NCBI GenBank assembly: GCA_011390755.1 | Contig: JAABRU010000020.1 | Coordinates: forward strand, 1 to 55,712 | Direction of reading: 5' to 3' | DNA from: Desulfobacteraceae bacterium | Lineage (GTDB): Bacteria > Desulfobacterota > Desulfobacteria > Desulfobacterales > Desulfococcaceae | Length of the DNA: 55,712 nt | Part shown: in pieces, positions 19,145-22,457 of the stretch | How the letters are laid out: each line of letters begins with the position of its first letter | Position numbering within the stretch: the first letter of the stretch is position 1 | The notes under the pieces: generated by a model | The model's input: the letters and a program-made list of their open reading frames with translations, nothing else | Databases searched by the model: none | What the model was told of the DNA's origin: nothing | Translations under genes and position numbers: made by a program

Positions 19145-20349
19145 CAGAACATTCGCCCTGTCCGGTACAGGCAAAATTCTGGACTCCGGGTGTGGTGCTG
19201 CTGGCCTTTCTCACGGGCTGCGGTGCGGTGGCCGCTGCAGCCCGTTTTATCGGCGGCATCGGCTATGTATCCCATCTTTCCACGGCCCGGCCCTGGGGAC
19301 TTTGGATCGGAGTGGATGTGGCTTCGGGTGTGGCCCTTGCCGCAGGCGGTTTTTCCACTGCCGCGCTGGCCCATATCTTCGGACGGCATCAGTATGAACC
19401 GGTGGTGCGTCCCGCACTGCTCACGGCCATGCTGGGTTATACCTTTGTGGTGCTGGGACTGCTGGTGGATATTGGCCGATCCTGGGCCATCTGGAAACCG
19501 GTTTTCAACTGGAACCTCAATTCCGTGCTTTTTGAAGTGGCCATGTGCGTAATGATTTATCTGCATGTGCTCTATATTGAATTCATCCCCATTGTCGCGG
19601 AACAGTTCAAAGGAAAAGTACGCATTCCCGGTCCCCTGTCCGCACTCAATCCCCTCATCGAAAAACTTCTGACCGTCGCGGATGCGGTTCTGGACAAAAT
19701 CATGTGGATCTTTATCATCGCGGGCGTGGTGCTTTCCTGTATGCACCAGTCCAGTCTGGGTTCCCTGATGCTCATTGCGCCGACCAAGCTTCATCCCCTG
19801 TGGTACACCCCGATTCTTCCCCTTCTCTTTCTCACCTCGGCCTTTGCAGTAGGCTATCCCATGGTGGTGTTTGAAACCACGGTGATTACCTCTTCTCTTA
19901 CACTGGATTCCGAAATGGAAATTCTCACCCCCCTGACCCGTATCACAATCTTTCTGCTGGGGCTGTATATGCTCCTGAAAATCGGGGATATGCTGTACCG
20001 GGGAAGCTATGTATATCTGCTGGACGGCAATGCCCAAAGCAATTCCTTTCTGGCGGAAATGATTTTCGGTGTGATTCTGCCCTGGTGTTTTCTTCTCTCG
20101 GAAAAAATACGGAAATCCCGGAGGGGTCTGTTCATCACCTGCGCCATGATTGTCGGCGGAGTGGTGCTCAACCGCATCAATGTTTTTCTGGTGGGATACC
20201 GTCCGCCCCTTACACAGACAGCATATTTTCCTTCCATCGGTGAGATTCTGGTCACTGTGGGGCTGATTTCCTGTCTGATGCTGGTCTACCGCGCGGCTGT
20301 TACTTATTTACCGATACTGAATGCTTCCCGAAAGGAGGTGCAAGTATGA
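19141..20349 (+). CDS. NrfD/HybB-type quinone-interacting membrane protein
   Basis: This 402-residue integral membrane protein has about ten membrane segments. It is of the NrfD/PsrC/HybB family, with the HybB-like segments RPWGLWIGVDVASGVALAAG near 44 and DIGRSWAIWKPVFNWNLNS near 111. It would oxidise or reduce menaquinone and exchange electrons with the ferredoxin encoded upstream. It overlaps both neighbours by 4 bases (ATGA-type junctions at 19141 and 20346), indicating a tight operon. The last codons include AAAGGAGGTGCAAG, the ribosome site of the cytochrome gene. Confidence 0.92.
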   Translation: MTEHSPCPVQAKFWTPGVVLLAFLTGCGAVAAAARFIGGIGYVSHLSTARPWGLWIGVDVASGVALAAGGFSTAALAHIFGRHQYEPVVRPALLTAMLGYTFVVLGLLVDIGRSWAIWKPVFNWNLNSVLFEVAMCVMIYLHVLYIEFIPIVAEQFKGKVRIPGPLSALNPLIEKLLTVADAVLDKIMWIFIIAGVVLSCMHQSSLGSLMLIAPTKLHPLWYTPILPLLFLTSAFAVGYPMVVFETTVITSSLTLDSEMEILTPLTRITIFLLGLYMLLKIGDMLYRGSYVYLLDGNAQSNSFLAEMIFGVILPWCFLLSEKIRKSRRGLFITCAMIVGGVVLNRINVFLVGYRPPLTQTAYFPSIGEILVTVGLISCLMLVYRAAVTYLPILNASRKEVQV

Positions 20350-22457
20350 AAAGGAAAGTGGGATTACTGCTGCTGTTTCTCTCCGCAGTCAGTACAGGAT
20401 TTCTGCCCGCATATAATGGACAGGGGGCAGGGAATGCTTTTGCAGCAGGGGCAGAAGAGAAGGGGGACGCAATTGCACTGACCGAAACAGAATGGAAGGC
20501 CCCGGATCAAATGGCCGCCCAAATCAGAGCGGCGGAAGAAGTTCCCTTTGTGGGCAAAGTCAAAGAGGAATGTCTCTGTGTCCGGCAGCAGCGTCTGCGG
20601 GACAAAGGACTGAGTACAAAGGATATTACCCACAGATATTTTCTGCTGGACAGTCCCCTGATCCGGAAAGAGGAGGATCAGTACGGCCCGGTGCGCTTTA
20701 TGCACAGCAAACATGCGGCTGTTCTCAAAGACTGCGCGCTCTGCCACCATTACCGTCCGGTTGATCCGGAAGCCCCGGAAACCACGCGCTGTTCGGCCTG
20801 TCACCAGGAATCCTTTCAGGAAGAATACCCGGAAAGAATCGGTCTGAAAGCGGCTTATCACCTGCAATGCACCAAATGCCACAAAGACATGCAGGAGGGG
20901 CCGGTGGGATGCACCGGCTGCCATAAGAAAAATGTGCCGGATCATGAAAAACTGGTGCAGCTGCCGGAAAAGCCGGAACCCACCCAGGTGACAGAGGAAT
21001 GCCTGCGCTGTCATCAGAAAGCCGGGGAAGATATGCTCAGCAGCGCGCACTGGCTCTGGAAAGGGCATTCCCCCTATACCATGGAGCGCAGAAAGGAGGT
21101 CCTGCACGGCAAAGGCACCACTGTCATCAACAATTTCTGAATCAGTCCCATCAGCAACGAGGCTCGTTGCACATCATGCCATGCCGGATACGGATGGAAA
21201 GACGATCAGTTTGATTTCAGTGATATGACAAAGATAGACTGTCTGGTCTGCCACGACACCACAGGAACATACAAAAAAGCACCGCCCGCGGCCGGAATGC
21301 CCGATCCCGAAAGCGATCTGCTCTATGTGGCAAAAAATGTGGGACACAGCAGTCGCAAAAGCTGCGGAAGCTGTCATTTCAGCGGCGGCGGCGGGGATGC
21401 CATCAAACATGCGGATATGTCCGGGGAACTTCTGAGCCCGGATCGTAACTGCGATATTCATATGGGCGGTTATGATTTCTCCTGTACAGAATGCCACAGA
21501 ACAGGGAACCATAAAATTGCCGGGCGCAGTACCACAGTTCCCGTAGTGGAGGGGGTTTTTTCCTGTGAAAACTGCCATACAACCGCTCCCCATAACAAAG
21601 AGGGCCTGCTGGACACTCATCTGAATCAGCACTGTGAAAGCATTGACTGCAATACCTGCCATTCCCCGGTATATGCCAAATGCAGACCCACCAAAACCTG
21701 GTGGGACTGGTCCAAAGCGGGGGACAAAACCCGGAAACCCCAAAAAGACAAATACGGTCTGCCGGATTATGACTGGAAAAAAGGGGAATTTGAATGGAAA
21801 GAATCCCCCAAACCAGAATATGCCTGGTTCGGCGGTTTTACCAAAAGAATTCTTCTGGGAGATCCGGTGGACATTCAGGCCCCGGTCATCAATATCACCG
21901 AACCGGTGGGGTCCATCAAAGATCCGCGTTCCCGGATTACGCCTTTCAAAATTATGGGCGGCATTCAGGCCGTGGATGCGGAGCACGCTTATTTCCTGAT
22001 TCCCCATCTGTTTCCACGGGATAAGGAGGATAAAACCGCCTACTGGAAACACAGGGATTGGGACAAATCTTTCACAGAAGGCATGAAAGCCGCGAAACTG
22101 CCCTACAGCGGTAAATATCAATGGGTAAAAACACAGATGTACTGGCGGGTGGAGCATGAAGTCATGCCCGCGTCCATGGCGCTTTCCTGTGTGCAGTGCC
22201 ATGAAAGCCTGAAAGGTGAGAAAACCTGCGACCGCTGCCATCAGGATCAGCGGGAAGTGGATTTTCAAAAACTGGCGCAGAAAGGAACGGATTTCAGTTT
22301 TATGGAATCCAGGGGAAGGGATGTCAGTGAGCTGATTGACAGTACGGATTATATCAATTTCAAAGCACTGGGTTATAAGGGCGATCCCATTATCCACGGC
22401 GGAAGGTTCCGGAAACTTCCGTTGGGTAAGAGTATGGCCGAAGCCGGAGAGCAGTAG
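20346..22457 (+). CDS. Thirteen-haem cytochrome c, octahaem tetrathionate-reductase-like, with in-frame UGA (selenocysteine 265)
   Basis: Read through one TGA at 21138-21140, this is a 703-residue secreted cytochrome with an N-terminal signal helix (about residues 5-24). Thirteen CxxCH motifs are present. Four (from C130, C149, C175, C189) form a c3-like part; one is at C219. Eight follow the TGA, first CTSCH at 275, then CLVCH, CGSCH, CTECH, CENCH, CNTCH, CVQCH and CDRCH. The second part matches octahaem tetrathionate-reductase-family sequence (INNF-x, CHAGYGWKDD, CHFSGGGGDAIKH, TWWDWSKAG). The UGA occupies the position where I recall a cysteine in NNFC. Both halves are in the same frame. 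The haem motif at 275 lies before the next ATG, and no ribosome site precedes it. A SECIS-like hairpin follows. The substrate is unknown; tetrathionate, nitrite and hydroxylamine are reactions known for the family. Confidence 0.85.
21138..21170 (+). promoter_or_regulatory. Bacterial SECIS-like element for UGA recoding
   Basis: After UGA (21138-21140) and 13 bases comes GCAACGA, loop GGC, then TCGTTGC: a perfect 7-bp stem at 21154-21170. Opening the top A-U pair gives the loop AGGCU, like the AGGUCU loop of Escherichia coli fdhF. The loop begins 19-20 bases after UGA. This fits the bacterial SECIS model: a stem of at least 4 bp, G within the first two loop bases, and 16-37 nt from UGA to loop. 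SelB would bind here. Confidence 0.75.

Follow-up and report, generated by a model that had tools for sequence, protein, structure and literature searches.

A predicted selenocysteine at a conserved cysteine position of a 13-haem cytochrome from the octahaem tetrathionate reductase family

The stretch of DNA studied here, 55,712 nucleotides from a Desulfobacteraceae bacterium (contig JAABRU010000020.1 of assembly GCA_011390755.1) and referred to throughout as the window, carries the gene of a multihaem cytochrome from the octahaem tetrathionate reductase (OTR) family whose reading frame contains a TGA codon. Our analysis points, with a probability of about 75%, to a 13-haem cytochrome in which this UGA stands for a predicted selenocysteine (Sec) at the position of Cys64 of the Shewanella oneidensis OTR, and which would work as a periplasmic reductase that draws on quinol and has a selenol next to its catalytic haem. 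Taken by itself, the assignment of Sec to the UGA at codon 265 is very probably correct, as judged from the comparison of related genes. An earlier note on this DNA had proposed this Sec; the proposal is supported by our data, and the findings that it named as speaking against it, among them a genome without sel genes or homologues without a cysteine at the site, did not materialise.

Translation of the forward strand yields, as the earlier note had described, one frame from 20346 to 22457 with a single TGA (21138-21140), and the two sides of this codon belong to the same protein. The family profile TIGR04315 covers residues 199-621 in one unbroken stretch with 495.8 bits (curated cut-off 375), and a phmmer search against solved structures finds the Shewanella OTR (1SP3; E 1.5e-112, 380.5 bits) in an alignment that runs through the site and places the U of the query opposite the C of the motif NNFC. 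The haem II motif, CTSCH, begins at codon 275, ten residues past the UGA site and ahead of the ATG at 21225. Pfam matches in the read-through protein are to Cytochrome_cB and to cytochrome c3/c7 domains; of the 13 haem motifs, the c3-like part contains four and the OTR part eight, the last one following the OTR part, and the N-terminal stretch looks by eye like a signal peptide. In an AlphaFold2 model (predicted template modelling score, pTM, 0.67) the OTR part is mostly confident, and 1SP3 is the sole match that Foldseek finds in the PDB at E <=0.001 (E 6.6e-41; template modelling score 0.86 by target length). With the Shewanella enzyme, the window protein shares the family by score, the predicted fold, the eight haem motifs, the NNF-C/U motif and the equivalents of Lys153 and Asp150 (residue numbers of 1SP3, like that of Cys64, were counted along the printed chain); it differs by the UGA in place of Cys64 and adds the c3-like tetrahaem domain and a thirteenth haem motif. 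We take Lys153 of 1SP3 to be an unusual haem ligand and Cys64 to face the substrate pocket; the UGA site is presumably close in space to haem II.

The same codon recurs as TGA far beyond the window. In a search without enrichment for TGA, TIGR04315 matches were found in 194 of 291 genomes of the order; among the 150 matches listed, 127 lack an internal stop and 23 have exactly one, which is always TGA, never TAA or TAG, and which lies in all 23 at the NN[FY]-U site. The earlier note had suggested a look for TGA at this position in other genomes, and a scan of our contig collection for the UGA form, made with a degenerate DNA pattern, brought up at least 116 stretches. In the alignment to the family, 113 of these have U at the site; a further one (L195) visibly carries the same motif at the edge of its DNA, and two (L167 and L182) do not look like family members. 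The 113 aligned stretches come from at least 111 differently named genomes, and 105 of these genomes possess a hairpin of -6 kcal/mol or lower. With TGA at the same codon in so many genomes, neither a base error nor a pseudogene is a reasonable explanation. Among the matches listed, carriers of the UGA form are mostly Thermodesulfobacteriota (Desulfobacterota), together with two Anaerolineae and one Phycisphaerae record (records titled only Deltaproteobacteria fall under Myxococcota in the rank look-up). They include the named isolates Desulfosarcina cetonica, D. alkanivorans, D. widdelii, Desulforhopalus vacuolatus, Desulfocicer vacuolatum, Pseudodesulfovibrio pelocollis, Salidesulfovibrio brasiliensis, Thermodesulfatator autotrophicus and Thermosulfurimonas dismutans.

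Among the relatives examined, cysteine is the only residue with which the UGA alternates. In 188 aligned rows the site is U in 137, C in 49 and a gap in two, with no other residue; the U:C ratio of these rows is not a measure of prevalence because the pattern scan selected for TGA and some genes are present twice. Removal of duplicates and short rows leaves 155 distinct rows (107 U and 48 C). The cysteine that the earlier note expected at this position is found in all 49 ungapped rows without UGA, as it is in 1SP3. The genes with UGA keep the active-site framework of the family, since the Asn-Asn ahead of the site is invariant (186/186 ungapped rows) and the residue equivalent to Lys153 is lysine in 180 of 180.

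A hairpin accompanies the UGA. In the window, its stem of 7 bp (21154-21160/21164-21170) starts 13 nt and its loop, GGC, 20 nt after the UGA, precisely as the earlier note had it. It fits the rules applied here for a bacterial selenocysteine insertion sequence (SECIS): a loop of 3-14 nt that starts 13-37 nt after the UGA and has a G among its first two bases, on a stem of at least 4 bp. Scored over 122 UGA and 48 Cys stretches from which identical 75-nt stretches had been removed, a hairpin of -6 kcal/mol or lower is present in 117 of the UGA stretches versus five of the Cys stretches, the rows being related and not independent. Its loop lies 20-24 nt downstream of the UGA in the UGA genes, where the hairpin is near-frozen. 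Two types can be told apart. Type I, that of the window, sits in codons for S-N-E-A-R-C: a 15-mer is identical in all 67 UGA rows reading NEARC, whereas 23 Cys rows reading NEPRC have 19 different sequences; its Ala codon is GCT, which in the pooled UGA and Cys rows makes up 17 of the 206 Ala codons at neighbouring positions. Type II sits in codons for N-W-C-R-C, and 41 UGA rows share three near-identical sequences (32, 7 and 2 rows). In the 46 type II-like rows, 96.6% of 322 cells pair, and one pair changes on both sides in five rows; none of 500 shuffles, a control that keeps relatedness in, reaches the covariation score or the percentage paired. When codons are shuffled synonymously, the mean z is -1.53 for UGA rows versus 0.02 for Cys rows, of which two of 48 reach p 0.05.

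The genome from which the window stems is 91% complete and contains, by profile search, the four genes whose presence the earlier note had wanted checked: selA (596.2 bits), selB (L002, on G000:C38; 376.6 bits), the tRNA-Sec gene selC (76.5 bits; gathering cut-off 47) and selD (372.6 bits), which itself has one TGA. Together with the SECIS-like hairpin and the in-frame UGA that aligns with Cys in homologues, this is what is expected of a bacterial selenoprotein.

Several observations weigh against our interpretation. The selB frame is broken by one TAA. This TAA begins with the last base of GACGCTCTTCCGATCT, which we take to be the end of an Illumina adapter, and since the break adjoins this adapter-like string, it most likely arose in assembly; in the window, GACGCTCTTCCGATCT is absent even with one mismatch allowed. 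With genomes classed by their listed copies, selA was not found in two of 23 genomes with a UGA-bearing OTR, and its co-occurrence does not discriminate, since it is as common in genomes with the Cys form (21/23 versus 41/43 sampled); we discarded this test as uninformative. The 60-nt stretch of the window, folded alone, does not differ significantly from shuffled sequence (z -0.66), 47 of 200 shuffles being at least equal to it. Single-sequence folding was consequently not used as proof of a SECIS, and the RNA evidence is comparative. Under synonymous shuffling, 20 of 122 UGA rows reach p 0.05 singly, a per-row test that is weak because its codon pool contains the frozen codons. Five UGA rows (L174, L185, L202, L181 and L172) have a weak hairpin or none that qualifies. 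On two of five measures, the type II helix does no better than the shuffles (pairs changing on both sides, 276/500; further pair types, 500/500). At the position of Asp150 the UGA rows vary (D 94, E 23, N 12, G 1, A 1), and the c3-like domain is poorly modelled by AlphaFold2, with a predicted local distance difference test (pLDDT) score mostly below 50.

A tree of the 155 distinct rows requires a minimum of 10 changes between U and C, at least seven of which are forced by well supported branches; it was built from an alignment without the site and the residues downstream of it, by a quick search with midpoint rooting, and UGA rows are over-sampled. On this tree, the hairpin of the UGA rows changes twice between types I and II, eight rows that fit neither strict definition being excluded; given the midpoint root, the type I core may have originated twice or been transferred by gene conversion. 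The protein next to the haem II motif changes along with the codon. The residue after Asn-Glu or Asn-Trp is Pro in most Cys rows of comparable sequence; it is replaced by Ala in the 67 type I UGA rows (Ser or Gly in a few others) and by an extra Cys in most type II UGA rows. It is because of this replacement that the RNA hairpin seems, on the aligned sequences, to dictate residues beside the haem II motif. Among the five Cys rows with a hairpin of -6 kcal/mol or lower is L042 (from genome G261), a gene that reads NEARC, has TGT at the site and retains a complete type I hairpin; it is likely a trace of a recent change from Sec to Cys. Two of the UGA rows without a good hairpin, L172 and L181, stand beside a clade of Cys genes and might have another form of SECIS or be in a transitional state. 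The genome of the window has a second UGA-bearing OTR (G000:C46:13186-14573; L206/L207) with the same type I hairpin core; this copy is present in two frames in the assembly, split near profile position 300.

The cytochrome gene is the last of three in an apparent operon, preceded by an iron-sulfur (FeS) protein of the twin-arginine translocation (Tat) type and an NrfD protein, with 4-base overlaps at both junctions. The FeS protein scores 339.1 bits with HmcB (cut-off 420) and, above its cut-off of 263, 273.4 bits with HybA; the membrane protein scores 338.4 bits with the HybB-like profile, below the cut-off, and 273.6 bits with HmcC (cut-off 550). The module thus resembles the quinone-linked modules of the Hmc, Nrf and Hyb types; it stays below the HmcB, HmcC and HybB-like cut-offs and has as its partner an OTR fusion rather than HmcA, so that, going by these scores, it is Hmc-like and not Hmc. 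The clade of the window comprises 47 UGA rows. Where at least 2.7 kb of DNA upstream of the site could be checked, HmcB-like and NrfD genes lie upstream in 33 of 34 members, the window included (the exception is L058), and 13 haem motifs are present in 37 of the 41 rows that are intact on their 5' side. Because this operon is kept, the predicted Sec-cytochrome is most likely a quinol-fed periplasmic reductase. Other Sec forms have a different neighbour: five downstream genes chosen for inspection (L093, L126, L160, L180 and L186) all encode cytochrome b561 (PF01292). In a third group (L056 and L099), four scanned neighbours are unrelated or without family. The two clear gene arrangements fit a supply of electrons from the quinone pool.

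From these data, we are inclined, by a modest balance of the evidence, to a broader view: a respiratory haem enzyme widespread among anaerobic bacteria of the sulfur cycle would have a natural selenol at its catalytic haem, would be connected to the quinone pool by either of two routes (FeS/NrfD with the 13-haem fusion, or cytochrome b561 with an 8-haem form), and would have been reshaped by its SECIS hairpin, with Pro giving way to Ala, or to an extra Cys, where UGA is present. The coordinates of the features discussed are compiled in Table 1.

Table 1. Features of the predicted Sec-cytochrome gene and its operon in the window
Feature	Positions	Strand	Remarks
HmcB/HybA-like 4Fe-4S protein	18224..19144	+	Tat motif TRRNFF; start inferred, mechanical open reading frame from 18119
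NrfD/HmcC-like integral membrane protein	19141..20349	+	stop TGA 20347-20349 overlaps next ATG
Predicted Sec-cytochrome gene	20346..22457	+	703 aa if TGA read through; 13 CxxCH
Class III cytochrome c-like tetrahaem domain	20673..20930	+	about residues 110-195; Pfam PF02085/PF14522, high-molecular-weight cytochrome 1GWS
Octahaem OTR domain TIGR04315	20940..22208	+	residues 199-621; fold match to 1SP3
In-frame TGA, codon 265	21138..21140	+	opposite Cys64 of Shewanella OTR (1SP3)
SECIS-like hairpin, type I	21154..21170	+	7 bp, loop GGC at 21161-21163
Lys354 codon	21405..21407	+	opposite Lys153 of 1SP3; invariant in family alignment
CDRCH, thirteenth haem motif	22227..22241	+	C-terminal to OTR domain

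A proposed course of events can be sketched as follows. SelB would bind the hairpin, and Sec-tRNA would read the UGA. In the membrane, NrfD would oxidise menaquinol; the FeS protein would hand the electrons to the fused c3-like tetrahaem domain, which would feed the eight OTR haems. In the least certain step, the selenolate may attack the sulfur-sulfur bond of tetrathionate or of a similar oxidised sulfur compound, and the selenium-bound adduct so formed would then be reduced by haem II; the selenolate would thus act much as the cysteine does in the di-haem TsdA. We propose this route because the cysteine at the haem of TsdA forms an S-thiosulfonate adduct (PMC4423706, PMC5146829). TsdA resembles this scheme in that a reactive residue at a haem would be the bearer of such an adduct; it differs as a di-haem cytochrome with Cys as an axial haem ligand and is not a member of the OTR family. 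The Shewanella OTR reduces tetrathionate, nitrite and hydroxylamine, with haem II as the catalytic haem, and has the small tetrahaem cytochrome STC as an interaction partner (PMC4484225), whereas the window protein is encoded in an operon with FeS and NrfD proteins. Attack on S-S bonds is our best guess for the substrate chemistry, and selenium would likely alter the chemistry at the catalytic haem.

The alternative that survives best keeps the Sec and exchanges the substrates: nitrite, hydroxylamine or related N-oxides would be the main ones, and the selenol would donate protons or electrons at haem II instead of acting as a nucleophile on sulfur compounds. The nitrite and hydroxylamine reduction by the Shewanella enzyme (PMC4484225) is in its favor, as are genes for NorB-like and hybrid-cluster (Prismane) proteins about 24-28 kb downstream in the window. 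These genes are, however, far off and not shown to be linked, and the named carriers of the UGA form among the matches listed are mostly bacteria of the sulfate-reducer type. NrfA is not known to need a thiol or selenol for nitrite reduction. We regard N-oxides as a possible but rather doubtful main substrate class.

Operation in the reverse direction, with the Sec-cytochrome oxidising a reduced sulfur compound and the FeS/NrfD module delivering electrons to the quinone pool, appears unlikely to us. NrfD modules do run both ways in sulfate reducers, but those FeS/NrfD modules that stand beside multihaem reductases, such as NrfCD, usually oxidise quinol. TsdA, too, is bidirectional (PMC6879331).

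Two further readings dispense with Sec altogether. If the UGA were a stop, a short cytochrome with the c3-like domain and haem 1 would result, perhaps with a separate C-terminal piece, from a split or decaying gene; a mechanical listing of open reading frames does return two, 20346-21140 and 21225-22457 (from the ATG at 21225), but the haem II motif is missing from the second. In a TGA-enriched set of 174 distinct rows, the OTR domains contain 128 in-frame TGAs, 126 of which lie at this codon; no residue other than Cys takes its place in the aligned rows, and the hairpin is frozen at synonymous positions. All of this leaves the reading highly improbable. It is equally improbable that suppression or a change of code places Cys or Trp instead of Sec at the UGA: a Cys-inserting suppressor would also restore function, given the homologues with Cys at the site, yet the genome has the Sec genes, a hairpin that follows the rules for a bacterial SECIS accompanies UGA but seldom Cys, and an altered code is ruled out by the TGA that serves as the stop of the adjacent nrfD-like gene.

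The earlier note knew of no described selenoprotein of this family, and this holds in part. TIGR04315 is already a row in the table of a review of the prokaryotic selenoproteome from May 2026 (WP_331457571.1, with Sec taken from GenBank annotation; PMC13188914), a row that names the same family and gives no motif. The same review contains the multihaem c-type cytochrome selenoprotein ExtKL (NF040886), set apart from the present protein by its family name. Among titles and, for most papers, the beginnings of abstracts, we found no publication on a selenocysteine OTR, and none reporting the position of the Sec, the two hairpin types, the repeated exchange of Sec and Cys or a quinol-coupled 13-haem variant; subscription papers and preprints lay outside the scope of this search. 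The genome paper of T. dismutans mentions an octahaem tetrathionate reductase, possibly the product of the UGA gene L125, with a cytochrome b gene next to it; in the text of that article searched, the word selenocysteine is absent (PMC4911364). Through L125, the UGA form of OTR is present in a cultured sulfur disproportionator, T. dismutans S95.

If our interpretation is true, mechanical gene calling splits the members of a group of multihaem respiratory enzymes into two pieces, in cultured sulfate reducers as well as in metagenomes. Selenium and sulfur could then readily be compared at one haem active site, as enzymes with a selenol beside the catalytic haem would have natural Cys counterparts, and the repeated exchange of Sec and Cys with frozen hairpins would be a clear case of an RNA signal constraining a protein near its active site.

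A gene for a DcaP-type porin follows the cytochrome gene (22506-23870). We found no support for it as a part of the system: in the flanks searched, many of which are short, it stands beside an OTR gene only in the window. In D. alkanivorans, a metallo-beta-lactamase/rhodanese fusion with a possible role in sulfur handling is encoded just downstream of the Sec-cytochrome gene (L105:2484-4034). Elsewhere in the window are a molybdopterin oxidoreductase with a pyrogallol-hydroxytransferase-like first domain, together with DctP/DctM transporter genes (929-9379), and MoeA and MobA-like cofactor genes (13393-15524). A RACo-type corrinoid activation protein is encoded at 32107-34182, and the NorB-like nitric oxide reductase and the hybrid-cluster protein that follows it (46055-50002) possibly form a nitrosative-stress pair.

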